Shown here: positions 33,227 to 50,652 of the stretch, one piece after another
Position numbering within the stretch: position 1 is the stretch's first letter
Layout: each line of letters begins with the position of its first letter
NCBI RefSeq assembly: GCF_018860245.1
Contig: NZ_JAHKPD010000018.1
Span: forward strand, 124,001 to 188,000
Direction: 5' to 3'
Source of the DNA: Pseudotamlana agarivorans
GTDB lineage: Bacteria > Bacteroidota > Bacteroidia > Flavobacteriales > Flavobacteriaceae
Length of the DNA: 64,000 bases
Translations under genes and position numbers: made by a program
Notes under the pieces: generated by a model
What the model was told of the DNA's origin: nothing
The model's database searches: none
What the model saw: only the letters and a program-made list of their open reading frames with translations

Positions 33227-33271
33227 CATGACAAAAATCATGTTTTAAGGGCATGCTAAAACTTATATTTG
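33227..33271 (+). promoter_or_regulatory. Fnr-like box and promoter of hemN
   Basis: CATGACAAAAATCATG at 33227-33242 is an inverted repeat. A 21-nt gap leads to the perfect -7 element TATATTTG at 33264-33271. The box would centre near -42 from the likely start, the class II activator position. The layout is identical at the cco genes. Confidence 0.75.
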
Positions 33272-33289
33272 TGTGTAGAGTATATAATT

Positions 33290-34654
33290 ATGTTAAACGA
33301 GTTAGTAAATAAATATAATATACCAGGGCCAAGATACACCAGTTATCCTACGGTGCCGTATTGGGATAGCGCGACGTTTTCATTAGAAAAATGGAAATTG
33401 TCATTACAAAAATCTTTTTTAGAAAGTAACATCAAAGAAGGTGTTAGCCTTTATATTCACTTGCCGTTTTGCGAGAGCCTATGCACGTTTTGTGGTTGTA
33501 ATAAACGTATTACCAAACAGCATAGCGTGGAATCGCCTTATATAAATGCGGTGTTAAAGGAATGGCAATTGTATTTGGATTTGTTTGACGAAAAGCCCAT
33601 CATCAAGGAATTACATCTTGGCGGCGGAACCCCAACATTTTTTAGTCCGCAGCATTTAACCATGCTTATTAAAGGCCTTTTAAAAGATGCTGTTCGTGCC
33701 GAAAATTATGAGTTTAGTTTTGAGGGGCACCCCAATAATACGACCAAAGAACATTTACAAGCCTTGTACGATGTTGGATTTAGACGCGTAAGTTATGGCG
33801 TTCAAGATTATAACGAAACCGTGCAAAAGGCGATACATAGAATTCAGCCGTTCGAAAACGTAAAACAAGCGACCAATATGGCTAGAGCCATTGGATATAC
33901 GTCGGTGGGGCATGATATTATTTTCGGATTGCCTTTTCAAACCTTAGAGCATGTTCAAGAAACCATTTTAAAAACGAAGGCTCTGCTTCCCGATCGATTG
34001 GCCTTTTATAGCTATGCGCATGTGCCTTGGATAAAAGGTAATGGGCAACGCGGATTTAAGGATTCCGATTTACCTTCCGGGGAATTAAAAAGAAAGCAGT
34101 ACGAGTTAGGAAAACAATTGTTGGCAGAAGTCGGGTACGAAGAAATTGGTATGGATCATTTTGCTTTAAAAACCGATTCGCTATATAAATCTATGATTTC
34201 AGGCGATTTACATCGGAATTTCATGGGGTATACGGCTTCAAAAACACAAGCTATGATTGGGCTTGGGGTGTCGTCAATTAGTGATAGTTGGTATGGGTTT
34301 TCTCAGAATGTAAAGTCTATTGAAGATTATTATAAACTGCTGGAGGAAGATACAATTCCTGTGTATCGCGGACATATTTTAAACGAAGAAGACCTTATTA
34401 TTCGTAAGCACATACTCAACTTAATGTGCCGCTTTAAAACATCGTGGACAGCAGATCAACGCTATTTTAAGGAATTGCCAGATGTACTGGTGAAATTGCA
34501 AGAAATGGAAAATGATGGTTTGCTAATTAGAACTAAAAATAGTGTTGAGGTGACTCAAAAAGGACAGCCTTTTGTACGTAATATTTGTATGGCATTCGAT
34601 GTGCTTTTACAACGAAAACAGCCTAATACACAGTTGTTCTCCATGACGATATAG
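33290..34654 (+). CDS. hemN: Oxygen-independent coproporphyrinogen III oxidase (radical SAM)
   Basis: A 454-residue protein when started at ATG 33290. An upstream in-frame TTG at 33269 falls inside the -7 promoter box and is rejected. HLPFCESLCTFCGCNKRIT holds the CxxxCxxCxC cluster motif of HemN. ELHLGGGTPTFF and DIIFGLPFQT are radical SAM signatures, and the C-terminal winged domain (RKHILNLMCRF...VEVTQKGQPFVRNICMAFD) is typical. It makes protoporphyrinogen IX without oxygen for heme synthesis. The Fnr-like box fits induction at low oxygen, alongside cbb3 oxidase. Confidence 0.95.
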   Translation: MLNELVNKYNIPGPRYTSYPTVPYWDSATFSLEKWKLSLQKSFLESNIKEGVSLYIHLPFCESLCTFCGCNKRITKQHSVESPYINAVLKEWQLYLDLFDEKPIIKELHLGGGTPTFFSPQHLTMLIKGLLKDAVRAENYEFSFEGHPNNTTKEHLQALYDVGFRRVSYGVQDYNETVQKAIHRIQPFENVKQATNMARAIGYTSVGHDIIFGLPFQTLEHVQETILKTKALLPDRLAFYSYAHVPWIKGNGQRGFKDSDLPSGELKRKQYELGKQLLAEVGYEEIGMDHFALKTDSLYKSMISGDLHRNFMGYTASKTQAMIGLGVSSISDSWYGFSQNVKSIEDYYKLLEEDTIPVYRGHILNEEDLIIRKHILNLMCRFKTSWTADQRYFKELPDVLVKLQEMENDGLLIRTKNSVEVTQKGQPFVRNICMAFDVLLQRKQPNTQLFSMTI

Positions 34655-34860
34655 GGAAGGACGATTTGCATATTTGTAAATACTCATAATAGTACCTCGA
34701 CTCTTTGAATTTATTTCAGGGTCTCATCATAAATTGTTGATTGCGTAGCCTTATGAGATACCGAATCAAGTTCGGCATGACGAAATCAAAGGGTTGTGAT
34801 AAAAGTTAAAAAAAAGATGCCCGTTTTCACGGGAATTAAAAAGATATTAATTAAAGTACC
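34655..34860. repeat. Intergenic dispersed repeat
   Basis: About 34703-34785 carries a second copy of the element at 7490-7575: TTTGAATTTATTTCAGGGTC, then CCGAATCAAGTTCGGCATGACGAA. CCCGTTTTCACGGG at 34820-34833 is the inverted form of the GAAA-tetraloop hairpin seen at 7749 and 42203. No gene is present. Confidence 0.6.
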
Positions 34861-35694
34861 ATGGAAAAAATTATTGTTCCTGTAGATTTTTCTGAACATT
34901 CAGAGCATGCTTTACAAACGGCCGCAAAATTGGCTAAAAAGTATCAAGCAGAACTGTTAGTACTTCATATGTTGGAAATGCCCGAAATGGTATTAACATC
35001 AACAGGGAAAAAGCAAAATGAAAAAGCTGGTTTTTTATTGCGCCTAACTGAGCAAAAATTTGCAAAACTTCTTGATGTTGGTTTTTTAATAGGGCTGAAA
35101 GTAACCCCTATAATTAAGCATTTTAAGATGTTTAGTGAGGTTAATGACGTGGCTAAAGAAAATGGTGCCGATCTTATTGTTATGGGAACCCAAGGTGCTA
35201 GTGGTTTTAAGGAAATGTTTGTGGGTTCTAATACCGAACGGGTTATACGTTATGCAGAAATTCCTGTTTTAGCGGTGAAAAAGAAAGTCATGGATGTTAG
35301 TTTTGAGGTGGTCGCGTTTGCATGCGATTTCTCGGAAGCATGTATTCCTGCATATTTAAAGGCAGTCAAGTTGTTTGAAAAGATGAACTCGAAAATGTAT
35401 TTGGTTTATGTGAATTTACCGAATGATAAATTTAAAAGTTCTGTAGAAATGGAAAAACAAGTCGCTGAGTTTCTTATGAAGGCCTGCGGAAATTTACAGC
35501 CTATGAAAAATGTTCATTATACCTCTGATTATAGCGTAGAAGCGGGTGTTTTAAGTTTTTCGAACAAAATAGGAGCCGATTTAATCGCATTACCAACACA
35601 TGGCAAAAAGGGCTTGGCACATTTTTTTGAAGGTAGCGTTGGTGAAGATGTGGCCAATCATGCTACATTACCAGTTATGACATTTAAAATATAA
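34861..35694 (+). CDS. Universal stress protein with two Usp domains
   Basis: A 277-residue tandem UspA-type protein. The first domain (1-145) ends with VMGTQGASGFKEMFVGSNTERV, a full G-2x-G-9x-G-S ATP-binding motif. The second (150-277) ends LPTHGKKGLAHFFEGSVGEDV, where the spacing is altered, so nucleotide binding there is doubtful. Such proteins often respond to oxygen limitation or stress. It lies beside hemN, but a repeat-rich spacer separates them and no Fnr-like box is visible before it. Confidence 0.9.
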   Translation: MEKIIVPVDFSEHSEHALQTAAKLAKKYQAELLVLHMLEMPEMVLTSTGKKQNEKAGFLLRLTEQKFAKLLDVGFLIGLKVTPIIKHFKMFSEVNDVAKENGADLIVMGTQGASGFKEMFVGSNTERVIRYAEIPVLAVKKKVMDVSFEVVAFACDFSEACIPAYLKAVKLFEKMNSKMYLVYVNLPNDKFKSSVEMEKQVAEFLMKACGNLQPMKNVHYTSDYSVEAGVLSFSNKIGADLIALPTHGKKGLAHFFEGSVGEDVANHATLPVMTFKI

Positions 35695-35793
35695 TAATAC
35701 AAAAGAACAAGGGAGTGAGAGAGTGAAAGTTGCTGTAACTGTTAAGATGCAATTACTTGAAATGGGCAGCTAAATTATTAGCTGCTTTTTTGT

Positions 35794-37188
35794 TTATAAA
35801 ATAGATGCGGCAATAATATTAAATAGGCTGGCCTTAGTTTTGAAAAAATCATTTTCCAAAGCGATGGCTTTCAGTTTGGCATCAATAAGTTTTGATTCTC
35901 TGGAGTTTACTAGAAAAAGTGAACTTTCACCCAGAAAGAACTTACGTTCTTCTGCATCAAGCATTTTGTTATAGTCGTTTACTATTTGGGCGGTGTATTT
36001 GTTTTGTAAGCTGAAGGACGTCAATTCTTGGTTAATAGCATTTACTTTATTCTTTAATGATACTTTCGTGGTTTGTATTTCAAATTGCGTATCCATTATT
36101 TTTAACTTGGCAAGCTTAAGGTCGGCGCGTTCTTTTCTTAAAAACAAGGGGAAACTTATGTTAACACCACTTTTATAGTCCGATGTGCTAAACGATCGTG
36201 CTACTTCTGGTGTTTGCGACAAGAAATTGTACTGTAAATCTATTTGAGGTAGTAAATTATTAGTTTTTAGTCGTTTTTCAACATTTAAACTTTGAAATTT
36301 ATAGCCTAAAGATAGGAGTTTAGGATGTTCGTCAAAGTCAAAATTTTCAATATCTAATACCGAGGTGTTCAGGGTGTTGTCAATCGTGTTTAAAGTATTC
36401 GTATCTGGAATGATACCTTCTTTTATTTCTATAGGTGTGTTTTCATTAAGCCATAAATAATTTGAGAGCTCTAATGACGCTTTCATGTACTTAACCCGCG
36501 ATTTTTCTAAGTTTAATTTTCTGTTGTTCAGTGCAATCCTAGCTTCTAAAGTGTCAATGGCAGGCACATCGCCTACTTCATAACTCTTTTTAACACCGTT
36601 AAATCGTATTCGAGCATTCTCAAGGAAGGCTTCGTAAACTTGTTTTTCATTAAAGGTTTTTAGCCAATTAAAATAACTTATAGTGGCTTGGTAAAGAATA
36701 TTATTTATTAGCAATTGCCTATCGGCTTTGGCTTGATTTACAAATAACTTAGATTGTTTTAGCATGGCCATTCGTTCGTTGATAAGCAAGCCTTTTGCTA
36801 CAGAAACGGATACGCCAACACTGTATAGTCCGTCGTCGGGTGTGTTGTTTTCCGGATTTAAATAATATCCAGTATTTTCTTCAAAATTACCCTTTAACTC
36901 AACACCATACCAAGTTGGTATTTTAAAAGCTGCATTTAGCTTATCATAGTATTCGGTGTCTTTAAATTTCTTTCTTCCGTAATCTACCTCCAGTTTAGGG
37001 TCGAAGGCACCTCTCGCTTTCATTAATTTCGCTTCACTTTCATTAATAACCAGATTGGCTTGTTTAACTACAGGGTGAAACGATTTTACGAAACCTAAAT
37101 ATTCAGGTAAACTAATCACTTTCGTGCTGTCTTGAGCATAGAGCAAAGTGCTCGTGAATAATATGATATGAAAAAATAATGTTTTCAT
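35794..37188 (-). CDS. TolC-type outer-membrane efflux protein
   Basis: A 464-residue outer-membrane factor with a signal peptide (FHIILFTSTLLYAQ) and two similar halves of long alpha-helices and short strands, as in TolC. Typical segments are SEAKLMKARGAFDPKLEVDY near residue 50 and LKLAKLKIMDTQFEIQTTKVS near 355. It would form the exit duct of the ABC/HlyD export complex encoded just upstream, 2 nt away. Confidence 0.9.
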   Translation of the reverse strand: MKTLFFHIILFTSTLLYAQDSTKVISLPEYLGFVKSFHPVVKQANLVINESEAKLMKARGAFDPKLEVDYGRKKFKDTEYYDKLNAAFKIPTWYGVELKGNFEENTGYYLNPENNTPDDGLYSVGVSVSVAKGLLINERMAMLKQSKLFVNQAKADRQLLINNILYQATISYFNWLKTFNEKQVYEAFLENARIRFNGVKKSYEVGDVPAIDTLEARIALNNRKLNLEKSRVKYMKASLELSNYLWLNENTPIEIKEGIIPDTNTLNTIDNTLNTSVLDIENFDFDEHPKLLSLGYKFQSLNVEKRLKTNNLLPQIDLQYNFLSQTPEVARSFSTSDYKSGVNISFPLFLRKERADLKLAKLKIMDTQFEIQTTKVSLKNKVNAINQELTSFSLQNKYTAQIVNDYNKMLDAEERKFFLGESSLFLVNSRESKLIDAKLKAIALENDFFKTKASLFNIIAASIL

Positions 37189-37190
37189 TT

Positions 37191-38546
37191 TTATATTTTT
37201 TTAGAGGCGTCCTTTTGGTTTTTGTTCGGTTGGTAGTAGTTAGGCGGGAAACTATTAATTTGTCGCCACAATTCGAACCAAATAGGTACATCTTCAAGTA
37301 AAGCAATGGTTCGCGCGCCAGATCCAACTCTAATGGCTTCAGGCCATTTGTAATCTACTTCATCGGGAGCCAGTAACACACGGTATTTGCCGTTGGTGCT
37401 AATAAAATTTTCAATAGCAACAACTCTAGCGCCGTAGGTTCCGTAAGATGCGTTTGGCCATCCGCTAAAAACTATGGCTGGCCAACCATCAAATTGTACA
37501 CGTACTTTTTCTCCAATATGAAGCAAAGGTAAATCGATTGGACTCGCATAGGTTTCAACAGCTAAATCATATTGGGCAGGCATAATACTTACCAATTCTT
37601 GACCTTCTTTAAAAGTAATCCCAATACCACCAGTATGTGCTCTATTTATATAACCAGCTTGTGGCGCGGTAACAAATAGCAAACTGTTACGAATTTTGTA
37701 GTTGGAATACGTGTTTTCGAGTTTGGTTACCTGTGCTTGGGCATCAAAACCACTAGATTGCGCCGTATACATATCACTTTGTGCTTTTGAAATTTTGTCG
37801 GCATAAGAAGCGCTAATTCTAGAAAGTTCCAGTTGTGCGTTTAAAACTTCGTTCTGGCTGGCGATATATTTGTTTTCTTGTGAAATTAATTTGGCTTGAG
37901 TTTCTTGTAGTTTCAGGCGCTTTTCTTCAACATCTTTCACAGCCTTTAAACCTTCTTCTTGAAGGGTTTCAATACGTTCAAATTGACGTTCGGCAATGTT
38001 TAAATTGGTTTTGGCAGCTTCTAAATCGATGCTGTCACTTTTCACCTTTAATTTCGACTGAATTAATTTGTTTTCGGTTTGTTTAAATTTTAATTTCTGC
38101 TCGTTAAGTATGGCGCTAATTTGTCGGTTTAAAGCATTTACTTTGCCTTCGTAAGCATTTACCGAAGACGCTTTTGCTTCTATCTGTTGGTTTGTTCTTT
38201 CAACCAATTTATCATCAAAATAGTCACTTTTTACTTCCGAAATTCGAAGTATCGTATCGCCTTTTTTTACATAATCACCCTCTTGAACAAACCATTCTTC
38301 AATGCGCCCAGGAATTTGCGACATGATGTGTTGCGGGCGCTGGTTTGGTTTTAAAGTGGTAACTGTTCCATTTCCCGTTATGTTTTGAGTCCACGGTAGG
38401 AAAAGAGTAATCACCATAATGATGGCAAGTGCAATTAAAAACTTGTTGAATTGCTTATAATAGTTTTTATTGAAAATGTCCTTGCTAGACTTAAAACGTG
38501 TTAAATCTATCTTTTTATTTAGTTGATTATTAGATATATTTAGCAT
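37191..38546 (-). CDS. HlyD-family membrane fusion protein
   Basis: A 451-residue adaptor. One membrane helix (FLIALAIIMVITLFLPW, about residues 35-52) precedes a biotinyl-lipoyl-like domain (PGRIEEWFVQEGDYVKKGDTIL) and a long coiled coil (about 115-290, with QFERIETLQEEGLKAVKDVEE). The beta-barrel resumes at LLFVTAPQAGYINRA. It bridges the inner-membrane ABC protein and the TolC-like duct. The start is 3 nt downstream of the ABC gene. Confidence 0.9.
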   Translation of the reverse strand: MLNISNNQLNKKIDLTRFKSSKDIFNKNYYKQFNKFLIALAIIMVITLFLPWTQNITGNGTVTTLKPNQRPQHIMSQIPGRIEEWFVQEGDYVKKGDTILRISEVKSDYFDDKLVERTNQQIEAKASSVNAYEGKVNALNRQISAILNEQKLKFKQTENKLIQSKLKVKSDSIDLEAAKTNLNIAERQFERIETLQEEGLKAVKDVEEKRLKLQETQAKLISQENKYIASQNEVLNAQLELSRISASYADKISKAQSDMYTAQSSGFDAQAQVTKLENTYSNYKIRNSLLFVTAPQAGYINRAHTGGIGITFKEGQELVSIMPAQYDLAVETYASPIDLPLLHIGEKVRVQFDGWPAIVFSGWPNASYGTYGARVVAIENFISTNGKYRVLLAPDEVDYKWPEAIRVGSGARTIALLEDVPIWFELWRQINSFPPNYYQPNKNQKDASKKI

Positions 38547-38549
38547 GAT

Positions 38550-40217
38550 TTATAGATTTTGAAGGGTTGCATGACCATTTTCTAAAGTCAATAATTCATT
38601 ACAGTTTTCAGCCCAGTTTTTGTCATTACTTATCACGATTACCGACCATGGATTTTCCTTATTGGTCAGAAATTCTATGATTTCTAACGATTCTTCTTTA
38701 GAAGACTTATTTAAAGGTTTTTCAAGAATTAATATCTTAGGAGACTTTAAAACGGCGCGCGCTAAAATCATTTTCTTCGAAACAGTAAACGATAATTGAT
38801 TGCCTTCAGCTTGAATGATGGTGTTAAGTCCCTTGGGTTGTTCTTTAATAAACGATCTTAATCCTACTTTGTCTATAATCTCAAATATTTTCTCGTCGGT
38901 TATTGTCGGGTTTCCAAAAGTTAAATTCTCTCTAATGCTGCCATCAAACGGTGTTTCTTCAGAAAAAGAAACGCCAACCTGAGAACGAAAATGGTTCAAA
39001 TTCAAACTGCTTATCGACATATCGTTTACGTAAACTGCTCCCGATGTCGCTTCATTAACACCTGCGATAAGACGTAATAAAGTTGATTTTCCGCTACCGC
39101 TTTCGCCTGTTATGAGAATGCGGCTGTCTTTTTTTATTTTTAATGAAATGTTGTTTAATATAGGTTTGCTTTTATCGGAAACCGAATAAGAAACTTGGTC
39201 CAATTCAATGGTTAAGCCATTTTTAAATACAGGCCTATCGCCATCTTGACTTTCTAGCTCTTTATCAACGATTTGACCTATTTTTTCTATAGAAGTTAGG
39301 GCATCGTAAAAGGATTCCAAGCCAAGAATCAATTTTTCAACTGAGCCTATAATTAGTAAAATGATGATTTCTGCGGCTACAAACTGACCAATATTCATTT
39401 CCTGGTTTAAAACTAATGCCCCTCCAATAAGTAAAAGGCTGGCGGTAACAATGACTTTAAAACTTATCATTTGAATAAACTGCAACATAAGTATTTTAAA
39501 GTGGCTTTCTCTCGATTTTAAATATTCACTAACCAATTCATCATTTTTACTCAAGCCTAAATTGGTGCTTCCAGACAGTTTAAAACTGGTTACCGTTCTG
39601 GCTATTTCTTGAATCCAGTGCGCAACTTTATATTTATTTTTAGATTCTTTTAAACTGGTTTTGAGTCCTTTTTCTGCTGTGAATTTGAAAATAACAAAGA
39701 TCAATATCAGTAATAAAACACCAAAAATGATAAAGAATGTGTGGTAAAAGGATAGTAGAATTAAAGCAAAAATCGTTTGTAAAACTGCCGAAGGCACATC
39801 AATTAGGATTTTCGATAAACTTTTTTGAAAGGTTAATGTATCAAAAAACCGATTTGCTAATTCCGGTGGGTGGTAATTACGAAGTTCAGCCATTTTTATT
39901 TTTGGAAAACGGTAGCTTAATTCGAAAGAGGATCTTAAAAACACACGCTGCTGTATGGTTTCCAAAATACGCAGTTGCATAATTTGTAAGCCGCCAGCAA
40001 AAGCCACACCTATGGTAACTAATACCACTAAAACAATCCATGAGGTGGATACTTGGGCACCCTGAATAAGGTTGATAATCGCCTGGATGCCTAGTGGGAG
40101 CGTTAAGGAAATAACACCTGAGAATATGGCGTAATAGAATATTTGTAAAATATCTCTTTTCTCAAGCTCTATTAATCCTAGAAAACGTTGCCATGGTGTC
40201 ATTGTAGGTTCCGTCAT
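38550..40217 (-). CDS. ABC transporter (permease-ATPase) with degenerate catalytic motifs
   Basis: A 555-residue half-transporter with six membrane helices (about residues 25-305) and a C-terminal nucleotide-binding domain. Walker A is intact (GESGSGKST, 371-379). The rest is degraded: the Q-loop Gln is replaced (VSFSEETPF, 416-424), the signature LSGGQ reads LSFTV (475-479), Walker B plus catalytic Glu (DE) read EK (499-500), and the H-loop His is Asn531. It probably binds but barely hydrolyses ATP. The reading frame is complete, and its place in an operon with HlyD and TolC suggests selection for a non-classical role. Confidence 0.9.
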   Translation of the reverse strand: MTEPTMTPWQRFLGLIELEKRDILQIFYYAIFSGVISLTLPLGIQAIINLIQGAQVSTSWIVLVVLVTIGVAFAGGLQIMQLRILETIQQRVFLRSSFELSYRFPKIKMAELRNYHPPELANRFFDTLTFQKSLSKILIDVPSAVLQTIFALILLSFYHTFFIIFGVLLLILIFVIFKFTAEKGLKTSLKESKNKYKVAHWIQEIARTVTSFKLSGSTNLGLSKNDELVSEYLKSRESHFKILMLQFIQMISFKVIVTASLLLIGGALVLNQEMNIGQFVAAEIIILLIIGSVEKLILGLESFYDALTSIEKIGQIVDKELESQDGDRPVFKNGLTIELDQVSYSVSDKSKPILNNISLKIKKDSRILITGESGSGKSTLLRLIAGVNEATSGAVYVNDMSISSLNLNHFRSQVGVSFSEETPFDGSIRENLTFGNPTITDEKIFEIIDKVGLRSFIKEQPKGLNTIIQAEGNQLSFTVSKKMILARAVLKSPKILILEKPLNKSSKEESLEIIEFLTNKENPWSVIVISNDKNWAENCNELLTLENGHATLQNL

Positions 40218-40219
40218 TG

Positions 40220-40894
40220 TTATAGTTTTAAGGTGTTTATTGTTAGGTTAATAAAGAATGATGATGGTTGTGTGGTTTCATTACAATCGGTCATTTTTGG
40301 CAAATGATCTTTTAGAAAATGTTGATGTAAACTGCCTTCAATAATGGTGCTTGCTAACGAAGAAGCGAAAGTATAATTTGGAGCGGCTTCAGTAATCATG
40401 TCACTTAATCTTGCGATCAAACGTTTGTAAATTACAAAGTAACCAGCCTTGTTTTCTTGGTCAACTTCTTTGGTTAAAAAGGATTTTGAATTTTCGTTAA
40501 TAATAATGTTGTTCAGTATAATTTCGTTGATATGCGAGAAATTTGAATCTTCTTTTGTAGTTCGACATAAAATATCAATGGCTTTTTCTAATTTCTCTTT
40601 TTTATCGTGAATACTATAGGTTTCAAAGACCATTTGATACTCTAACCAAGCCCAATACCAAGACGATAAGTACAATAATAGTTTATGCTTGTTTTCGAAA
40701 TAACGATAAATAGAACTTTCATTAGAACCTATTTTAATACCTAGTTTTTTAAATGTAAAGGCCTCAAATCCAATGTTATCTATTAAAAGAATGCTGTTTT
40801 CAATAATGCGTTTGCCTAATGTTGAAGATTCAGGGTCTTTAACGTAAATGATGTCGGGCACTGAAATTTTAAGATTTGATAGTAAATTACGCAT
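40220..40894 (-). CDS. TetR/AcrR-family transcriptional regulator
   Basis: A 224-residue regulator. The helix-turn-helix is IDNIGFEAFTFKKLGIKIGSNESSIYRYFENKHKLLLYL (about residues 38-76). The rest is an all-helical ligand or dimer domain. It is the first gene of the operon with the ABC, HlyD and TolC genes (gaps of 2-3 nt), so it likely represses its own operon in response to an unknown compound. Confidence 0.88.
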   Translation of the reverse strand: MRNLLSNLKISVPDIIYVKDPESSTLGKRIIENSILLIDNIGFEAFTFKKLGIKIGSNESSIYRYFENKHKLLLYLSSWYWAWLEYQMVFETYSIHDKKEKLEKAIDILCRTTKEDSNFSHINEIILNNIIINENSKSFLTKEVDQENKAGYFVIYKRLIARLSDMITEAAPNYTFASSLASTIIEGSLHQHFLKDHLPKMTDCNETTQPSSFFINLTINTLKL

Positions 40895-41030
40895 GTGTAA
40901 TTATTTTAATTTCAAAAGTAATAGTAAAGCTATTAAAAAAGAAATTAAAGCTATTATTTATTTCTATGCGCAATCAATAAAATTTATGTGGATGAAATTT
41001 ATAATAAGAAAATGTCTTAAAAAGAGGGTT

Positions 41031-41732: not shown

Positions 41733-41733
41733 A

Positions 41734-42180: not shown

Positions 42181-42202
42181 CCCTATTTTTGTGTTTTTTT
42201 AT

Positions 42203-42220
42203 TTCCCGTGAAAACGGGAA
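42203..42220. repeat. GAAA-tetraloop hairpin repeat
   Basis: TTCCCGTGAAAACGGGAA forms a 7-bp stem with a GAAA loop. The same sequence occurs at 7749-7768 and, inverted, at 34820-34833. It lies between the HEPN pseudogene and ccoH. Confidence 0.6.
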
Positions 42221-42228
42221 TCTGTGTT

Positions 42229-42555: not shown

Positions 42556-42847
42556 AAATCAGGATTTTTGTTTCATCAAGTTCCTTTTTGAAATATTTAT
42601 TTTTTATGGCGCGGTGTTCTATGAGGTCAATCTGACGTTTTAATAATTTTTCCAGTTTGTCTTTCAGTTCAAAGTATAAATTAGTGTATTCAAAAGGGTC
42701 ATTTTCATCAAAATCTACCACAAAATCATAGTCTGATTCATTGTTAAAATTATCTCTAGTTACAGATCCAAAAGCAGCGAAACTTCTAACCTTGTATTGT
42801 TTACAAAGTTTTTTAATCAGATTTATATTTTTGTCGTTTATTTTCAT
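42545..42847 (-). CDS. MNT-type nucleotidyltransferase (MntA-like antitoxin)
   Basis: A 100-residue minimal nucleotidyltransferase. FAAFGSVTRDNFNNESDYDF fits the GS-x10-DxD active site exactly. In HEPN/MNT modules this enzyme modifies and silences the HEPN toxin. Here the toxin is frameshifted, so the antitoxin may be a relic or have another target. The pair interrupts the cco gene order between ccoG and ccoH. Confidence 0.85.
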   Translation of the reverse strand: MKINDKNINLIKKLCKQYKVRSFAAFGSVTRDNFNNESDYDFVVDFDENDPFEYTNLYFELKDKLEKLLKRQIDLIEHRAIKNKYFKKELDETKILIYGQ

Positions 42848-43020
42848 ATTTCAAAAATAGTCAAATTTCTAGTGTGTTTGATTTTACGTGAATCTTGTTT
42901 TGATTCCATAATTTTTTTGCGTGATATAAAATCTAGTAGAAGAAGTTTCAATGAGTTTTTCCATATTGGAGTCGTTAGTTGCTGAAAACGTTTCCTTTTT
43001 AACTTTTAATTATTCATTAA

Positions 43021-44445
43021 CTACTTATAACTCCGCGGCCCCAAAAAGTTAGCCGTTGTCGTTTCAATCAAATCATCACCTTCATAAACGCCAATTTCTA
43101 TTTTATTTCGGTCACCTGATAATGCTGAATTATTTATTTCAACAAATAAAGTACCCTCTGCTAAGCCTTGACTAGGTACAAAGAGATTATCGTGGGTGGC
43201 TACAATCTTTAAAGTCCCCTTGTGAGACAATAGTTTTAAAGTCACATTTTCAAAATCACGAGATGTTTTATTAACTAGCTTATAGGTAAATACATTGCTA
43301 ATAATATTATTGTCTTTGTGCTCGTAAAGCTGACCAGGAAGCCTTAATATATTGGCCTCAATATCGTTTCTTAAAAACAACATACCGGTTAATAACCCTG
43401 TGAGAATCACTAAAACAGCGATGTACCCTTTTAATCTAGGGGTGAGTTTAAATTTAGCTTTCTTTTCAATTTCTTCCTCACTGGCGTAGCGTATTAGACC
43501 TTTTGGTAAATCGATACTTTCCATAATATGGTCACATTCGTCAATACAAGCGGTACAGTTTACACATTCTAATTGTGTCCCGTTACGAATGTCTATTCCT
43601 GTAGGACAAACATTTACACATTGTTTACAATCGATACAATCGCCATGACCAAGCGCTTCGCGGTCTTCATTTTTCTTGAATTTTTTTCGTCCGTTTTCAG
43701 CTTCACCACGCTTATGGTCGTAAGCAACAACAATTGATTTTGTATCTAGGAGCACCCCTTGTAACCTTCCGTAAGGACAAGCGATAATACAAACCTGCTC
43801 TCTAAACCAAGCAAAAACAAAATAAAATACGGCAGTAAAAATAATGAGTGACACTAGCGTGCTAAAATGATTACTGGGGCCGTCCTTTATGTATTGAATA
43901 AGTTTATCGCTTCCTATTAAGTAGGCCAGAAAAACATTCGCTATTATAAAGGAGATGAGTAAAAATATGAAGAGTTTTAGTCCTTTTTTTCTTATTTTTT
44001 CGGCATTCCATGGTTGTTTTGCCAAACGCATTTGTTTCCCGCGATCGCCTTCAATCCAATACTCAATACGACGGAATACCATTTCCATGAAAATGGTTTG
44101 CGGACAAATCCAACCACAAAATATTCTACCAAAAGCAACAGTAAAAAGCGCAATAAAAATAACGCCAATAAGCATGGAAATGACAAATAAATAAAAATCT
44201 TGAGGCCAGAAAGGGAATCCGAATATATTAAAACGACGTTCTAATACATTGAACATTAAAAACTGATTACCGTTTACTTTTATAAAGGGCGCAGTGATTA
44301 AGAAGGTTAATAATAAGTAACTAACATATTTACGGTACTTGTATAATTTACCGTTTGGTTTTTTAGGAAATACCCAGGCGCGTTTCCCGTCTTTGGTAAC
44401 CGTGCCAATAGAATCTCTAAATGTTTCGTTGTCCGGTGTTTCCAA
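43021..44445 (-). CDS. ccoG: Cytochrome c oxidase accessory protein CcoG (FixG)
   Basis: A 474-residue membrane protein with about five helices and two ferredoxin-like 4Fe-4S motifs, CIDCKQCVNVCPTG and CVNCTACIDECDHIM (about residues 265-310). FGRIFCGWICPQTIFMEMVF and CIIACPYGRLQGVL add further cysteines. CcoG is thought to reduce copper for CcoI and CcoN maturation. The C-terminal Ig-like domain (about 370-474) is typical. It follows ccoP after a 74-nt spacer carrying a hairpin. Confidence 0.95.
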   Translation of the reverse strand: METPDNETFRDSIGTVTKDGKRAWVFPKKPNGKLYKYRKYVSYLLLTFLITAPFIKVNGNQFLMFNVLERRFNIFGFPFWPQDFYLFVISMLIGVIFIALFTVAFGRIFCGWICPQTIFMEMVFRRIEYWIEGDRGKQMRLAKQPWNAEKIRKKGLKLFIFLLISFIIANVFLAYLIGSDKLIQYIKDGPSNHFSTLVSLIIFTAVFYFVFAWFREQVCIIACPYGRLQGVLLDTKSIVVAYDHKRGEAENGRKKFKKNEDREALGHGDCIDCKQCVNVCPTGIDIRNGTQLECVNCTACIDECDHIMESIDLPKGLIRYASEEEIEKKAKFKLTPRLKGYIAVLVILTGLLTGMLFLRNDIEANILRLPGQLYEHKDNNIISNVFTYKLVNKTSRDFENVTLKLLSHKGTLKIVATHDNLFVPSQGLAEGTLFVEINNSALSGDRNKIEIGVYEGDDLIETTTANFLGPRSYK

Positions 44446-44461
44446 TGTTTTTTTGAATTAA

Positions 44462-44490
44462 GACCTCTTGAGCTGGTAACTCAAGAGGTC
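44462..44490 (-). other. Hairpin between ccoP and ccoG
   Basis: GACCTCTTGAG (44462-44472) and CTCAAGAGGTC (44480-44490) form a perfect 11-bp stem with a 7-nt loop. No U-run follows on the minus strand, so it is less likely a full terminator than an mRNA-stabilising or partial-attenuation structure that lowers ccoG expression relative to the oxidase subunits. Confidence 0.6.
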
Positions 44491-44519
44491 AATTTAGTTT
44501 AATGTGTAATAATCTAGTT

Positions 44520-45506
44520 TTATTCGTTTATAGCCTCAGCAGGTGTTTCCGCTTGTAATGTTGTGTCTATTTGAGTTTCTGTTGTTTCTTGTGTTTCCTC
44601 GGTAGTTGCTTCAGCTCCTTCAGTAGCTGCATTTGGATCTACGATAATATCACCTTCAGCAGCTTTAGGATTCGCAGGTGTTGTGCCTTGAAACGTCATA
44701 ACGTAGCTGGCAACCTGTGCAATTTCTAAAGGTTTTAATTGTGCTTTCCAAGCAATCATCCCTTTTCCTGAACGACCACCTTCTGAAACGGTGTGGAAAA
44801 TACTTTTGATATCACCACCTAAAATCCAGTGGTTATCGGTTAAATTCGGACCAATACCACCACCACCATCGGCCATATGGCAAGCCACACAGTTGGTGTT
44901 GAATATGTTCTTACCAGCAGCTAAATCGGCTGTTTCAGTTAACTGAGTTACCGTATTAACATCAACCAATCCTTTAGCGGTTTTCTTATAAGCTTCTATG
45001 GCTACTTGAGCTTCAGCAAGCTCGGTGTCAAATTCTTCTATTTGATTTTGACCACTAAAAACTTCAAATCTTAACAGGTAAACCACAGCGAATACAATCG
45101 AGATGTAAAACGCATATTTCCACCATGGCGGTAAATCGTTATCTAATTCTTTAATACCATCATAGTTATGGTCTAATATGATTTCAGCTTCTTGTTCTAT
45201 TGGTTTCGATCCTAATAATTTAATGTAGGTTTTCTTTAACCAATCTAATTGTACTGATTTATTTCTGTCGGCAATAAATTTAGCTTTTGCTTCAGGGTCT
45301 AATTTCTGAAACATGACATTTTCTAGTGAACCCACAATACCTTCAATAGAAATTAAAATGAATAGCACTAACAATAAGAACAGCAGCACGGCTGGATATT
45401 TTACAAAAGCTGGTTGATTTCCAGAATCTACAAAAAATTCTACCGTTCCTAGAACTATAAAAAATAGGACCGGAACACGAATCCAAGATGGAATTAAGTT
45501 TCTCAT
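44520..45506 (-). CDS. ccoP: cbb3 oxidase cytochrome c subunit CcoP, single-heme form
   Basis: A 328-residue subunit with helices at about residues 12-28, 36-55 and 130-147. PPWWKYAFYISIVFAVVYL is the CcoP N-terminal helix. Only one heme motif is present (CVACH, Cys206/Cys209/His210), with one cytochrome c domain, while proteobacterial CcoP has two. The C-terminus is a low-complexity T/E/A-rich tail. It passes electrons to CcoO/CcoN. The start overlaps ccoQ by 4 nt. Confidence 0.92.
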   Translation of the reverse strand: MRNLIPSWIRVPVLFFIVLGTVEFFVDSGNQPAFVKYPAVLLFLLLVLFILISIEGIVGSLENVMFQKLDPEAKAKFIADRNKSVQLDWLKKTYIKLLGSKPIEQEAEIILDHNYDGIKELDNDLPPWWKYAFYISIVFAVVYLLRFEVFSGQNQIEEFDTELAEAQVAIEAYKKTAKGLVDVNTVTQLTETADLAAGKNIFNTNCVACHMADGGGGIGPNLTDNHWILGGDIKSIFHTVSEGGRSGKGMIAWKAQLKPLEIAQVASYVMTFQGTTPANPKAAEGDIIVDPNAATEGAEATTEETQETTETQIDTTLQAETPAEAINE

Positions 45507-45691
45507 AATATGTCGTCGTTTTGGTGGTTGTCTAATGGTATATTACTTACTCTATTGATGTAATCTTTTTTAGCGGTTACTACCCACCAAAATAAAGCTA
45601 CAAAAAAGATGAAAAAGATTAATAAGGAGATGATCGGGTATATTTCTATACCGGCGATACTCTCCATGTGGTTTTTTATATATTTTAACAT
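45503..45691 (-). CDS. ccoQ: CcoQ/FixQ-like small cbb3 oxidase subunit
   Basis: A 62-residue protein with one membrane helix (IISLLIFFIFFVALFWWVVTA, about residues 19-39) and a short polar tail. Size and position between ccoNO and ccoP identify it. CcoQ stabilises the cbb3 complex. Confidence 0.85.
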   Translation of the reverse strand: MLKYIKNHMESIAGIEIYPIISLLIFFIFFVALFWWVVTAKKDYINRVSNIPLDNHQNDDIL

Positions 45692-45714
45692 GCTTGCAGT
45701 TTTTTAGGTGGTTA

Positions 45715-47904
45715 TTATTGTGCGGTTTCCACTTTAATATCTGTTCCTAAGCGCTGTAAATAGGCAATCATTGCAACAATTTCTCTGTCTTTCATTTCAA
45801 TGAAATCCTCACCGTTTGCTGCAGCCGCTTTCTTATCAGATTCATAAGTAGCTACAAAATCAGGATCCGAATACAAATTCTTTTCTATTTGAGCGCCTTG
45901 TGCATCCATGCTTTGTTGCGCATTCGCAATTTCTGCTTCGGTATAAGGTACGCCTAAGCTTACCATAGCTTCCATTTTAGCTTCGGTCATCGATTTGTCT
46001 AATCGGCTACTTTCACCTGTAATTAACCAAGGGTAACGTGGCATGATTGAGCCCGATGAGGTACTTTGTGGATCATACATGTGGTTAAAGTGCCAGTTAT
46101 CTGAGTATTTCTGACCAATACGGTGTAAATCTGGTCCAGTACGTTTACTTCCCCATAAAAATGGATGATCGTAAACATATTCGCCTGCTTTAGAGTATTC
46201 GCCGTAACGCTCAACTTCATGTCTAAAAGGTCTAATCATTTGGGAGTGGCACCCAACACAACCTTCTCTAATATAAATATCACGGCCTTCTAATTCTAAA
46301 GGTGTGTATGGTTTTACACTAGCGATAGTTGGAATATTCGATTTCACCATAATGGTAGGTACAATTTGAATCACACCACCAATTAAAATAGCTACAGTCG
46401 CTAAAATGGTTAACTGAATTGGTTTACGTTCTAACCAGGTGTGCCATCCTTCGGAAGCTGTACGTTTGCTTGATACTTTTTCTAAAGCAGCCGCTTCAGC
46501 CAATTCATCTTCAACAGGTGTTCCTTGTTTAACAGTGGCAATCACGTTATAAACTAATACGAACATCCCTATAATATATAAGGTCCCTCCAATAGCACGC
46601 ATCCAGTACATTGGCATGATTTCGGTTACGGTTTCTAAAAAGTTTCCGTAAACTAAAGTACCGTCTGGATTAAATTGTTGCCACATGGAATATTGCGTAA
46701 ATCCAGCAACATATAATGGTAAGGCGTACATGATAATCCCTAAAGTACCTAACCAAAAGTGTAAATTAGCTAAGGCTAAAGAGTATAATTTTGTTTTAAA
46801 TAACCTCGGAATTAAATAGTAAATAATACCAAAAGCCATAAATCCGTTCCATGCTAAAGCACCAACGTGTACGTGAGCAATAATCCAATCGGTAAAGTGG
46901 GCAACGGCATTCACGTTTTTTAATGATAACATTGGACCTTCAAAAGTCGCCATACCATAACCCGTAATGGCCACAACCATAAACTTTAAAACAGGATCGG
47001 TACGTACTTTATCCCATGCACCACGCAGGGTTAGAAGACCGTTTATCATACCACCCCAAGATGGCATTAACAGCATAACAGAGAAGGCAACACCTAAGTT
47101 TTGTGCCCATTCTGGTAAAGCAGTATATAATAAGTGGTGCGGTCCAGCCCAGATATAAATAAAGATTAAAGACCAGAAGTGTACAATAGAAAGTCTATAG
47201 GAATAAACAGGTCTGTTTGCTGCTTTAGGAACGAAGTAATACATCAATCCTAAAAACGGAGTTGTTAAGAAGAAAGCAACGGCATTGTGTCCATACCACC
47301 ATTGTACAAGGGCATCTTGAACACCAGCATATACCGAGTAACTTTTCATGGCAGACACAGGCAATTCAATATTATTAAAAATGTGAAGCACAGCAACAGT
47401 AACAAAAGTGGCAATGTAAAACCAGATGGCCACGTATAAATGGCGCTGTCTACGTTTTAAAATTGTCCAAATCATATTAATACCAAAAACCACCCAAATT
47501 ACAGCGATGGCAATGTCAATAGGCCACTCTAATTCGGCATATTCTTTAGATGAGGTATAACCTAAAGGAAGTGAAATAGCGGCAGCAACAATAATAAGTT
47601 GCCAACCCCAGAAGTTAATATTACTTAGTAAATCACTGGCCATACGTGCTTTTAGTAAACGCTGTAGCGAATAATAAATACCCGCAAACATGGCATTACC
47701 TACAAAGGCAAAAATAACGGCATTGGTGTGTAATGGTCTTAATCGTCCGAAACTAAGCCATGAAATACCATCGGTTAGATTTGGGAATAAAAACAAAAAG
47801 GCAAGTAGTAAACCTACTGCCATGCCCACCACACCAAAAACTATTGTAGCGTAGATAAATTTGGTTACGATCTTATTGTCGTAATGAAACTGTTGCATTT
47901 CCAT
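45715..47904 (-). CDS. ccoN: Fused CcoN-CcoO, cbb3-type cytochrome c oxidase
   Basis: A 729-residue fusion. Residues 1-480 form CcoN with 12 or more helices and heme/copper His ligands (RPLHTNAVIFAF, WWYGHNAVAFFL, AGPHHLLYTALP, HFTDWIIAHVHVGALAWNG). After a linker, one helix at about 496-516 leads to CcoO with heme motif GCVGCHSQMIRPF (about 545-557) and MPRYPWL with an axial Met. It reduces oxygen to water with high affinity and pumps protons. The N-O fusion is usual in Bacteroidota. Confidence 0.96.
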   Translation of the reverse strand: MEMQQFHYDNKIVTKFIYATIVFGVVGMAVGLLLAFLFLFPNLTDGISWLSFGRLRPLHTNAVIFAFVGNAMFAGIYYSLQRLLKARMASDLLSNINFWGWQLIIVAAAISLPLGYTSSKEYAELEWPIDIAIAVIWVVFGINMIWTILKRRQRHLYVAIWFYIATFVTVAVLHIFNNIELPVSAMKSYSVYAGVQDALVQWWYGHNAVAFFLTTPFLGLMYYFVPKAANRPVYSYRLSIVHFWSLIFIYIWAGPHHLLYTALPEWAQNLGVAFSVMLLMPSWGGMINGLLTLRGAWDKVRTDPVLKFMVVAITGYGMATFEGPMLSLKNVNAVAHFTDWIIAHVHVGALAWNGFMAFGIIYYLIPRLFKTKLYSLALANLHFWLGTLGIIMYALPLYVAGFTQYSMWQQFNPDGTLVYGNFLETVTEIMPMYWMRAIGGTLYIIGMFVLVYNVIATVKQGTPVEDELAEAAALEKVSSKRTASEGWHTWLERKPIQLTILATVAILIGGVIQIVPTIMVKSNIPTIASVKPYTPLELEGRDIYIREGCVGCHSQMIRPFRHEVERYGEYSKAGEYVYDHPFLWGSKRTGPDLHRIGQKYSDNWHFNHMYDPQSTSSGSIMPRYPWLITGESSRLDKSMTEAKMEAMVSLGVPYTEAEIANAQQSMDAQGAQIEKNLYSDPDFVATYESDKKAAAANGEDFIEMKDREIVAMIAYLQRLGTDIKVETAQ

Positions 47905-47913
47905 AGTTGAGAA

Positions 47914-48099
47914 TTAGTCTTTTTTGGTTAGAATTGATTTTTTTGGTTTTTCTTTTATGAGTTCGTCTTCAAACAACATGCGAACAGAAGGGGTGTAGCT
48001 ATCATCATACTGCCCGCTTTTTACCGCAACGATAAAGGCTATAAAAAAGCCAACGGCAACTATGATGCTGATTGCTAGTAAGATGTATATCACACTCAT
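47914..48099 (-). CDS. ccoS: cbb3 oxidase assembly protein CcoS
   Basis: A 61-residue protein with one membrane helix (IYILLAISIIVAVGFFIAFIVAV) and a short cytoplasmic tail (SGQYDDSYTPSVRMLFEDE). This is the CcoS pattern; CcoS is needed for cofactor insertion into CcoN. It is the first gene after an Fnr-like promoter and ends 9 nt before ccoNO. Confidence 0.9.
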   Translation of the reverse strand: MSVIYILLAISIIVAVGFFIAFIVAVKSGQYDDSYTPSVRMLFEDELIKEKPKKSILTKKD

Positions 48100-48128
48100 T
48101 TGGTAGTTCTGAATTGTTGTTTAGTGTT

Positions 48129-48173
48129 CAAATATATTTTGATACAGCATTCTAAAATATGACATTTATCATG
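48129..48173 (-). promoter_or_regulatory. Fnr-like box and promoter of ccoSNQP
   Basis: On the minus strand CATGATAAATGTCATA (48173-48158) is followed after exactly 21 nt by the perfect -7 element TATATTTG (48136-48129). Start of transcription near 48122 places the box at about -43. The box overlaps the ccoI stop codon, so the oxidase genes have a promoter separate from ccoI. Confidence 0.75.
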
Positions 48174-50562
48174 TTTTTTCAACCTTATCGTGAATTTTTT
48201 TTCCTACGAAGTTAGTGCTAATTGTTGTAAATACAACAATGCTTATAGAACTTAATGGCATTAAAATAGCTGCAATAACTGGTGCTAATTGTCCTGTAAT
48301 TGCAAAATAGAGACCGATGCAGTTATAAATTAATGATAAAGCAAAGCTCCATTTTATGATTTTAATTGCCGATTTTGAGGCTTTTATGAAGTTGTAAAGC
48401 TGATTAAAACTTGAAGCATCTAAAATAGCGTCGCAAGCTGGTGAAAAAACATTCACATTTTCTGAAATGGCAATACCTACATCGCTTTGCGCTAGAGCTC
48501 CGGCATCGTTTAATCCGTCGCCTATCATTAAAACTTTGGCGCCCGAATTTTGATGGTGCCTAATGTATTCCAGTTTATCTTCTGGTTTCTGATTAAAAAG
48601 CAATTTGGTTTTTACAGGGAGTAATTTGGTAAGGTTTTCTTGTTCCCCAGAATTGTCTCCTGAAAGAATAACCAAATCGTATTCTTTTTTTAACTGACTA
48701 AAAAGTTTAGAAAGGCCTTTGCGGTAACGGTTATAAAAAGTAAATCGGCCTTTATATTGATTGTTTGTACTTATGTGTACGGCGGTGTTTAAGGTTTCGG
48801 TTTCTGCAGTATAACCAACAAAAGCGCCAGAACCAATTTTTATCGAATCTTGATTAGATTGCGCTTCAATACCTTTACCAATATGTTCTTCATAGTTTTC
48901 GATTGTAACGATATCGTGTTTGCTTAAAACCTCGTACAGCGATCTACTTAGTGGGTGATTGGAATTTCGTAAGGTGCTTTTTAGAAAAGCCTCTTCATTG
49001 GTGGATAATTTTGAGCCTTCATAGGCGATAGTGGTTTCTTTATTGGCTGTAATCGTTCCTGTTTTGTCAAAAATAATGGTATTTATTTGTGATAATTGCT
49101 CAATCACAGAAGCGTTTTTAGCATAAAACTTCTGCTTGCCAAAAATACGAAGCATATTACCCAAGGTAAACGGAGCTGCAAGCGCAATAGCACAGGGGCA
49201 GGCAATGATAAGTACCGCCGTAAAAACATTTAAGGCTTTAGAGGAATCGTTTATTAGCCAATACGTTGTGGCCAAAAAGGCTATGCTTAAAATAGCAATG
49301 GTGAATCTTTTACTTATAGTGTTCGTTAAAGTGGTAAAAGCGTCTTCTTTATTTTTGTTGAACACATCGTTACTCCAAAGTTGGGTTAAATAGCTTTGTT
49401 CCACACTTTTTAAAACATCAACTTCAATACTGCCTTCAACTTGTTTGCCACCGGCGTATAATTTATCGCCTGATTGTTTTGAAACCGCTTCAGATTCACC
49501 TGTAACAAAACTATAATCAATGCGTGCCCTTCCGTTGATTAAAATACAATCAACTGGAATGAGTTCTTCGTTTCTAATAAGAAGTCGGTCACCTTTTTTA
49601 ATGTCGTAAACTTGAATGGATTCTTCTTCGCCTTCAGAAGTTATTTTAGTGATTCCGATAGGGAAATAAGATTTATAGTCCCTTTCAAAGGATAAAAAAC
49701 TATATGTTTTTTGCTGAAAAAACTTTCCGAGAAGGAGAAAAAATATTAACCCAGCGAGACTATCGAAAAAACCTGTACCAATATCTAAAATGATTTCAGA
49801 AGTACTTCTAATAAATAGTACAGCAGCGCCCAAGGCAATGGGGACATCAATATTTAAAATTCGTGATTTTAGGCCTTTATATGCTGAAATAAAATAGTCT
49901 TGAGCTGAATAAAACACCACTGGCAGTGAAAAGGTAAACATAAGCCACCTGAAAAGGGGTTTAAATTGTTCGAGCCAAAATTCGCCAACCTGAAAATATT
50001 CAGGAAAGGAAAGAAACATGATGTTTCCGAAGGCAAAACCAGCAACGCCTAATTTGTAAATAAGTGAGCGGTCCACGTTCTTTTTTCCAACCGAATAATC
50101 ATCTAAGCTAATAAAGGGTTCGTAGCCAATGCTACTAAGTAATTTAACTAATGCTTTTATGGGTAACCCCTCAGAATTATAGGTAACGCGTACTGTTTTC
50201 TTTCCAAAATTAACAATTGAAGAGGTGATACTCGAATTCAATTTATTTAAATTTTCAAGAATCCAAATACAAGAACTGCAATGAATATGCGGAATATAAA
50301 GGGTTACAATTTGGGTGTTTTTATCATTAAACTCAAGCAGGGTTTCTACAATCTTGGCATTGTCTAAAAAATTGTATTTACCCTCAGTTTCTATAGGCGT
50401 GGCGCCTGGAGCTTGCTGTAAATCGTAATATGAAGTTAAATCGTTTGCCGAAAAGATCTCGTAAACCGTTTTGCAACCGTTACAACAAAAGGATTTTTCA
50501 TCATAAATGATTTCAGAGGCTGCTGAATCGAGACCACAGTGGAAACATGTTTTATGTTCCAT
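48169..50562 (-). CDS. ccoI: Copper-transporting P-type ATPase for cbb3 oxidase assembly
   Basis: A 797-residue P1B ATPase when started at ATG 50562; an in-frame start at 50595 would lie in the promoter. The N-terminus has CFHCG and CCNGCKTVY, then a metal-binding domain with HCSSCIWILENL. ACPCAIALAAP is the membrane CPC copper site, FDKTGTITANK the phosphorylation site, and IGDGLNDAGALAQSDVGIA the hinge. It delivers copper for the CcoN active site. An Fnr-like promoter lies upstream, divergent from fnr. Confidence 0.94.
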   Translation of the reverse strand: MEHKTCFHCGLDSAASEIIYDEKSFCCNGCKTVYEIFSANDLTSYYDLQQAPGATPIETEGKYNFLDNAKIVETLLEFNDKNTQIVTLYIPHIHCSSCIWILENLNKLNSSITSSIVNFGKKTVRVTYNSEGLPIKALVKLLSSIGYEPFISLDDYSVGKKNVDRSLIYKLGVAGFAFGNIMFLSFPEYFQVGEFWLEQFKPLFRWLMFTFSLPVVFYSAQDYFISAYKGLKSRILNIDVPIALGAAVLFIRSTSEIILDIGTGFFDSLAGLIFFLLLGKFFQQKTYSFLSFERDYKSYFPIGITKITSEGEEESIQVYDIKKGDRLLIRNEELIPVDCILINGRARIDYSFVTGESEAVSKQSGDKLYAGGKQVEGSIEVDVLKSVEQSYLTQLWSNDVFNKNKEDAFTTLTNTISKRFTIAILSIAFLATTYWLINDSSKALNVFTAVLIIACPCAIALAAPFTLGNMLRIFGKQKFYAKNASVIEQLSQINTIIFDKTGTITANKETTIAYEGSKLSTNEEAFLKSTLRNSNHPLSRSLYEVLSKHDIVTIENYEEHIGKGIEAQSNQDSIKIGSGAFVGYTAETETLNTAVHISTNNQYKGRFTFYNRYRKGLSKLFSQLKKEYDLVILSGDNSGEQENLTKLLPVKTKLLFNQKPEDKLEYIRHHQNSGAKVLMIGDGLNDAGALAQSDVGIAISENVNVFSPACDAILDASSFNQLYNFIKASKSAIKIIKWSFALSLIYNCIGLYFAITGQLAPVIAAILMPLSSISIVVFTTISTNFVGKKIHDKVEKT

Positions 50563-50592
50563 AAAAATTTTGCTTGTTTTTTTGTCAATTAA

Positions 50593-50652
50593 CAAAAATG
50601 GAAAATCAACAAATCATTACACATGATAATTGTCATGATTTATTTATTTTTG
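50593..50652. promoter_or_regulatory. Shared Fnr-like box between ccoI and fnr promoters
   Basis: The palindrome CATGATAATTGTCATG (50622-50637) serves two divergent promoters. Toward ccoI a 21-nt gap leads to CATTTTTG (50600-50593), a 7/8 -7 match, so activation is expected. Toward fnr only 7 nt separate it from TATTTTTG (50645-50652), a perfect -7, so the bound protein would cover the -33 region and probably repress fnr. Confidence 0.7.

Follow-up and report, generated by a model that had tools for sequence, protein, structure and literature searches.

In FNR of the Escherichia coli type, a recognition helix of the form E-x-x-S-R goes with the half-site TTGAT, and FnrS is an enterobacterial small RNA that is activated by FNR and ends at an intrinsic terminator. 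The cluster of Aliivibrio fischeri FNR is held by Cys20, Cys23, Cys29 and Cys122, in the numbering of the available part of PMC4214427. For flavobacteria, the available part of PMC9723704 places the -7 box, TAnnTTTG, at -12 to -5 and reports that cbb3 oxidase and heme enzymes of Flavobacterium psychrophilum rise under oxygen limitation. The DNA analysed here is a stretch of 64,000 nucleotides from Pseudotamlana agarivorans (contig NZ_JAHKPD010000018.1, positions 124,001 to 188,000; hereafter the window), in which the same palindrome precedes hemN, ccoS and ccoI at one spacing and a gene for an Fnr-like protein lies next to ccoI. Given the sequence, the spacing, its conservation, the gene neighbourhoods and the conserved cysteines and helix residues, it is suggested with good confidence that the Fnr-like protein encoded at 50673 binds this operator, carries a cluster, responds to oxygen and activates hemN, cco and ccoI from a class II position while repressing its own gene.

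Results

Spacing of the palindrome and the -7 box

A preliminary description of this DNA had reported three 16-mers upstream of hemN, ccoS and ccoI, each 21 nt from a -7 element, and both the 16-mers and the distances were confirmed at the positions in Table 1. The core that it gave, ATGA-N8-TCAT, is wrong: the palindrome reads ATGA-N6-TCAT, that is ATGAY-N4-RTCAT. The -7 boxes of hemN and ccoS agree strictly with the flavobacterial sigma-A box TAnnTTTG and that of ccoI, CATTTTTG, deviates at the first base. The composite was defined as ATGAY-N4-RTCAT-N22-NANNTTTG, with the first base of the -7 box left free so that the ccoI box qualifies (strict box, TANNTTTG). Three composites were found in the window against 0.02 expected, a number reached by none of 100 shuffles, and two of the three satisfy the strict TANNTTTG. 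The palindrome without the spacing shows no significant excess in the window: 3 copies stand against an expected 1.47, and 20 of 100 shuffles give as many or more.

Across the 3.73 Mb genome there are 36 palindromes, compared to 15 for a reversed-pattern control. When ATGA-N6-TCAT was combined with gaps of 12 to 32, eight composites were obtained; all five of the ATGAY-N4-RTCAT form have N22, and the three that are not of this form have gaps of 28, 29 and 30. A -7-like box (at least 5 of 6 fixed bases) lies exactly at N22 for 12 of 16 intergenic palindromes and for 0 of 20 intragenic ones, that is, those within a frame of 90 aa or more (Fisher p = 1.5e-6); the site at 50623 falls within an over-long fnr frame and was counted as intergenic because fnr starts at 50673. 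Downstream of the 12 N22 sites are hemN, ccoS-NO, ccoI, hemE (TIGR01464), pta (PTA_PTB), a cytochrome c lipoprotein gene, an alginate-export type porin gene adjoining nitrate transporter genes, a YceI gene and the gene of a family-less 603-aa protein, and the last three sites cluster in one island. Allowing one mismatch in the palindrome at N22 brings in a gene like that of pyruvate formate-lyase, the gene of an NMT1-type binding protein close to the nitrate transporter genes, and one judged by eye to be related to the Thioredoxin_9 genes that carry the box in other genera. With up to two mismatches, 48 composites were found against 27 in the control, so about half of these looser composites are due to chance.

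The same spacing prevails among relatives. A composite occurs in 45 of 50 related genomes, with at least 150 matches in a scan that allowed gaps from N12 to N32; among the matches listed, 143 distinct ones outside this genome, N22 accounts for 110, N21 for 8 and any other gap for at most 3. Taken together with the -7 placement in the available part of PMC9723704, the N22 peak puts the centre of the palindrome at -41.5 relative to predicted starts, in agreement with the class II position (an activator site centred near -41.5) that had been claimed for it. Positions 16-19 of the composite, where a -33 box would fall, are 65-70% T among the matches listed from relatives.

Downstream DNA was taken for the 77 listed N22 sites that lie in other genera (18 genomes); the 35 same-genus sites were left out. 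The first gene encodes a cytochrome c lipoprotein at 8 sites, HemN at 7, CcoNO at 6, a Thioredoxin_9 protein at 5 and MlaE at 4 (two being identical proteins of one genome). Three sites each precede genes for copper nitrite reductase (nirK; TIGR02376 on the one tested), methylmalonyl-CoA epimerase, Usp and NHL-repeat proteins, and two each precede pta, ccoI, a NorC-like cytochrome gene (both in one genome) and a gene of ribosome-hibernation type (by eye). Singletons include Rrf2, hemerythrin and NadA, and one site has no open reading frame (ORF). The set from this genome and its relatives is thus rich in micro-oxic, heme, fermentation and denitrification genes at one fixed spacing, which supports the regulon of hemN, cco and ccoI put forward in the preliminary description and extends it through the family.

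The claim that the half-site differs from E. coli TTGAT also holds, since the sites 5' of hemN, cco and pta carry ATGA, with CTGA in four f7 genomes. TTGA was considered as the true half-site and rejected: in the same 50 genomes and gap range the TTGA version gave 60 matches, 17 of them at N22 (p 1.8e-9 against a uniform gap), and among the 16 of these 17 sites that were read downstream none lies 5' of hemN, cco, pta or pfl. The gene downstream of one TTGA N22 site (L308) resembles, by eye, cytochrome c peroxidase.

A proposed two-way operator between ccoI and fnr

One palindrome lies between the divergent ccoI and fnr genes. Among 80 named relatives, 63 have an exact palindrome no more than 120 nt from fnr, and towards ccoI 60 of these score 5 or 6 of 6 at N22. 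The first base of the xANNTTTG box in the 60 qualifying relatives is G in 24, A in 22, C in 13 and T in 1, so that it is not T in 59 of 60, and it is T in 61 of 61 qualifying sites on the ccoS side. From these sequences the ccoI -7 box (50593-50600; relatives L133-L212) is a conserved weak variant, consistent with down-tuning of the promoter. Towards fnr, the distance between the palindrome and a -7-like box is 8 nt in 40 of the 63 and 9 nt in 15, with about 1 to 2 expected per gap. Fixed spacing on both sides indicates one operator kept at two fixed distances, and this suggests that from a single palindrome ccoI may be activated, by way of its weak -7 box, and fnr autorepressed.

The Fnr-like protein and its cysteines

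The listed frame from 50574 begins too early, as alignment with relatives places the start at ATG 50673. The protein belongs to the CRP/FNR superfamily by PF00027 (68.6 bits) and PF13545 (57.8 bits), both above cut-off, and by a fold match; its closest named Fnr, from Tamlana sp. 2_MG-2023, is 98% identical. It scores 93.2 bits with the NCBIfam Fnr model NF008365, the cut-off of which is 228.

Three overlapping sets of proteins show Cys4, Cys7, Cys53 and Cys106 without exception (30 of 30 in the set that includes this genome, 21 of 21, and 38 of 38). Of 21 matches that are more distant or come from across the phylum, 18 have all four; in two f5 proteins none of them is present, and the remaining protein is of the other cysteine type. 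Aligned to A. fischeri FNR, Cys4, Cys7 and Cys106 correspond to the ligands that the available part of PMC4214427 numbers Cys20, Cys23 and Cys122. Three of the four canonical ligands are therefore matched; the Cys29 position is Asn13 here and is never Cys in the 21 distant or phylum-wide proteins, and the position of Cys53 is Ala in A. fischeri FNR. A paralogue in this genome (L070, on contig C19) and the protein at L299 have CxxCx4C and the Cys106 equivalent, with Phe or Ile at position 53, and this comparison indicates that Cys53 and the third N-terminal cysteine replace each other in the proteins examined. The structure model has a mean predicted local distance difference test score (pLDDT) of 81.6, with only 69 for residues 1-20, and places Cys53 in strand 50-56 and Cys106 in strand 103-109, which are presumably neighbours within the CRP beta-roll.

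In the recognition helix, Glu209 and Arg213 of FNR correspond to Glu191 and Arg195, and Ser212 to Ile194, so that the helix reads E-x-x-I-R and the sites ATGAY in place of the canonical pair. The change of Ser212 to Ile was considered as the cause of the preference for ATGA over TTGA; it is real but is common to several paralogues, and as a cause it is a tentative suggestion. A literature search found no paper on the residues that contact the half-site.

Apparent small RNA genes carrying the box

The three sites in the island (L041 3470, 3884 and 5442) are each followed, from the predicted start, by 85-90 nt of nearly identical sequence and then an intrinsic terminator. There is no ORF of 60 aa or more directly 3' of the first two, and the third lies about 200 nt 5' of an FKBP gene. 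The folding z-scores of these apparent small RNAs are -4.7 to -4.8. A model built on the RNA part alone and searched in 119 genomes gave 2 to 7 matches in each of six same-genus genomes, this one included, of which 2 to 6 per genome are clear copies. All 20 clear copies have an exact ATGAY-N4-RTCAT at -48 to -35 and a VANNTTTG box at N22, and 17 of the 20 were found without using the box; as the copies are homologous, their boxes are not independent events. A 21st match (G005:C1:450210, E 1.7e-4), which overlaps a clear copy on the opposite strand, was left out of the count, and weak matches in G307, G038, G046, G059 and G031 (E above 3e-4) were not taken as relatives. In a neighbouring genus (G022; L393, G022:C7:99500-118500) there are seven weaker, diverged copies; the Fnr palindrome is absent at all seven, most of which have a TATATTTG or TATCTTTG box upstream. 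The family-less 603-aa protein (L031 2041-3852; no Pfam or NCBIfam match) has a composite 5' of its gene both here and in G022.

Paired cells of the alignment are standard in 95.2% of 394 cases compared to 31-52% in slid controls; double base-pair changes are few, and the pairs so changed are no commoner than in shuffles (280 of 500 reach the number). The unpaired, almost invariant core of the RNA suggests a candidate pairing region. Its complement gave one match in the window to each of two patterns, with no above-chance signal. The sole Rfam match scores 22.5 bits (E 0.44), the gathering threshold being 50. A small ORF in place of a small RNA is not favoured: a frame of 10-11 codons ending at a conserved stop is, by eye, open in 18 of 20 copies and shifted in both copies of G002.

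Features of the window

The features are collected in Table 1. For hemN the ATG at 33290 was taken as the start, the listed frame beginning at TTG 33269. The ccoS operator (core 48159-48172) overlaps the stop codon of ccoI, so that the 3' end of the ccoI coding sequence doubles as regulatory DNA. Elsewhere in the window, GTGACAAATGTCAT-N22-TAGCTTTA at 6631-6674 is a composite with two mismatches 5' of a TonB_C protein gene at 6705-7436.

Table 1. Predicted operators, -7 boxes and genes; coordinates are those of the window unless another locus is named.
Feature	Coordinates	Strand	Remarks
hemN operator CATGACAAAAATCATG	33227-33242 (core 33228-33241)	+	centre at -41.5 relative to predicted start 33276
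hemN -7 box TATATTTG	33264-33271	+	22 nt 3' of the 14-bp core
hemN, oxygen-independent coproporphyrinogen III oxidase	33290-34654	+	TIGR00538, 428 bits
ccoP-like cbb3 oxidase subunit	44520-45506	-	PF14715; TIGR00782 below its cut-off
ccoNO fusion, cbb3 oxidase subunits I and II	45715-47904	-	TIGR00780, TIGR00781, NF011053
ccoS, 61 codons	47914-48099	-	assigned by eye from the sequence
ccoS -7 box TATATTTG	48129-48136	-	predicted start 48124
ccoS operator CATGATAAATGTCATA	48158-48173	-	ATGA half includes ccoI stop codon 48171-48169
ccoI-type heavy-metal P-type ATPase	48169-50562	-	PF00122, PF12156, PF00403; ATG at 50562
ccoI weak -7 box CATTTTTG	50593-50600	-	predicted start 50588
Shared ccoI/fnr operator	50622-50637	both	CATGACAATTATCATG facing ccoI (-41.5), CATGATAATTGTCATG facing fnr (about -27.5)
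fnr -7 box TATTTTTG	50645-50652	+	8 nt past the operator core; predicted start 50657
Fnr-like CRP/FNR regulator, 225 aa	50673-51350	+	PF00027, PF13545; Cys4, Cys7, Cys53, Cys106; helix Glu191, Ile194, Arg195
Three apparent small RNA genes	L041 3518-3606, 3932-4024, 5490-5580 (own genome C9:22000-31000, outside the window)		intrinsic terminators, palindrome at N22

Discussion

In the mechanism proposed here, ATGAY-N4-RTCAT would be the operator of the dimeric Fnr-like protein (50673-51350) and, 22 nt before the -7 box, would sit at -41.5 and cover the -33 region. At low oxygen the protein would recruit polymerase as a class II activator and so turn on hemN, ccoSNOQP, ccoI and other genes, oxygen being sensed by an iron-sulfur cluster bound to Cys4, Cys7, Cys53 and Cys106. 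The operator between ccoI and fnr would activate ccoI on one strand and would repress fnr, in whose promoter its position, about -27.5, falls between the -33 and -7 regions.

Adjacency, co-occurrence and the helix residues indicate that the protein encoded at 50673 is probably the reader of the palindrome. In 148 genomes of the order, the composite with the fixed N22 gave 176 matches compared to 1 for a reversed control. Family members with a strong orthologue (expectation value E below 1e-60) all carry composites (18 of 18, 92 in total); three family members with weak matches have 5 composites in 2 genomes, 15 other genomes with a match have 18 in 7, and 79 genomes without a match have 5 in 3.

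Several observations weigh against this assignment. The co-occurrence is confounded with genome size, because the genomes free of an orthologue are mostly small. Of the 19 f5 genomes (e.g. G034, G047 and G118), 14 have 51 composites between them, and the nearest protein in f5 genomes aligns without the N-terminal cysteines, none of the four being present in the two proteins read; G012, which has no close orthologue, nevertheless has 5 composites. The composites of f5 and G012 indicate that the N22 geometry is also used by a different regulator or by a form that has no cluster, and the enrichment of TTGA at N22 indicates that the geometry also serves other regulators. Conversely, 14 f7 genomes have an orthologue and just 5 ATGA composites, in 4 of them. 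The exact palindrome within 120 nt of fnr is missing in 17 of the 80 named relatives, and several target genes have no evident link to oxygen.

These points raise the possibility that the class II operator is real but that its main reader, or one of its readers, is a different CRP/FNR protein, either the C19 paralogue or, in relatives, receiver-CRP fusions. This is unlikely, though it is the alternative that survives best. Besides the Fnr-like protein, four CRP-type proteins are encoded in this genome, and one of the four shares the E-x-x-I-R residues of the helix; these residues are kept in the C19 paralogue (L070) and in the fusions L290-L292 and L304, with Thr for Ile in the fusion L302; in addition, f5 genomes have composites, and G012 has composites together with just fusion-type or weaker regulator matches. 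Against it, the N22 box upstream of ccoN is found at 0 of 6 f5 loci (one has N23) and, as the CTGA version, in 4 of 11 f7 genomes that keep the four-cysteine orthologue, and in two further f7 genomes the scanned gaps after an ATGA palindrome contain no -7 box. Moreover, the fnr-ccoI operator stays beside the 50673-type gene in most of the named relatives.

As to the other regulators themselves, the second FNR-type gene (L070, L303) has E. coli-like cysteine spacing, adjoins a globin-like frame (by eye) and lies near nitrate transporter genes. The regulators at L290, L291, L292, L302 and L304 are of about 350 aa and by eye resemble receiver-CRP fusions, four of the five with E-x-x-I-R; some of them lie near N22 composites, e.g. 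in G018.

A second alternative, that the Fnr-like protein activates these genes in response to nitric oxide, redox state or a small ligand, not oxygen, is less probable still. The boxed genes include nirK, NorC-like and hemerythrin genes, the cluster is a prediction, and the N-terminal part of the model is of low confidence. However, all four cysteines are invariant and three align with FNR cluster ligands, the boxed genes belong mainly to oxygen-limited respiration, heme and fermentation, and the cbb3 and heme genes of a relative rise under oxygen limitation (PMC9723704, available part). Finally, that palindromes and spacing are products of chance in an AT-rich genome, for which only the palindrome taken by itself in the window would speak, is virtually ruled out by the composite count, the shuffles, the single-gap peak and the contrast between intergenic and intragenic sites.

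What surprises most is the apparent shift of the fourth cysteine, together with the operator that faces both genes and the family of apparent small RNAs with Fnr boxes. A full-text search that covered few subscription journals listed no paper whose title or abstract describes this operator or, for Bacteroidota, an Fnr regulon responsive to oxygen. With the rule ATGAY-N4-RTCAT-N22-TANNTTTG, the low-oxygen regulon could be predicted from genome sequences in a group that is dominant in marine and soil habitats, the cysteine pattern predicts how an iron-sulfur sensor can shift a ligand, and the small RNAs would open a new entry to post-transcriptional control in Bacteroidota.

Compared to FNR of E. 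coli and A. fischeri, the protein described here lacks the third N-terminal ligand Cys29 and has a conserved Cys53 where FNR has Ala, it has Ile194 in place of Ser212, and its half-site is ATGAY whereas that of FNR is TTGAT (TTGATGTACATCAA in the available part of PMC4214427). Bacillus Fnr likewise has a ligand set unlike that of E. coli, but its cluster is held by three C-terminal cysteines and an Asp, as given in the available part of PMC3520743, and the four candidate cysteines here are N-terminal and in the beta-roll. The Crp/Fnr protein of Porphyromonas gingivalis (PDB 2gau) aligns from residue 35 and lacks Cys53 and Cys106. A MalR-like CRP/FNR protein predicted in the Flavobacteriales is of the same superfamily and order; the available part of PMC8510549 gives it a carbon-sensing role and a MalR motif, whereas an oxygen-responsive ATGA palindrome is predicted here. 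The apparent small RNA genes resemble FnrS in having an FNR-type site and an intrinsic terminator and differ from it in their 2 to 6 clear copies per genome, with no relation found (the Rfam match being far below gathering). Taken together, there is about an even chance that this is a Bacteroidota-specific FNR which takes the fourth ligand of a [4Fe-4S] cluster from Cys53 of the beta-roll, recognises ATGAY half-sites and drives multi-copy small RNAs of Tamlana that would be an independent counterpart of FnrS.

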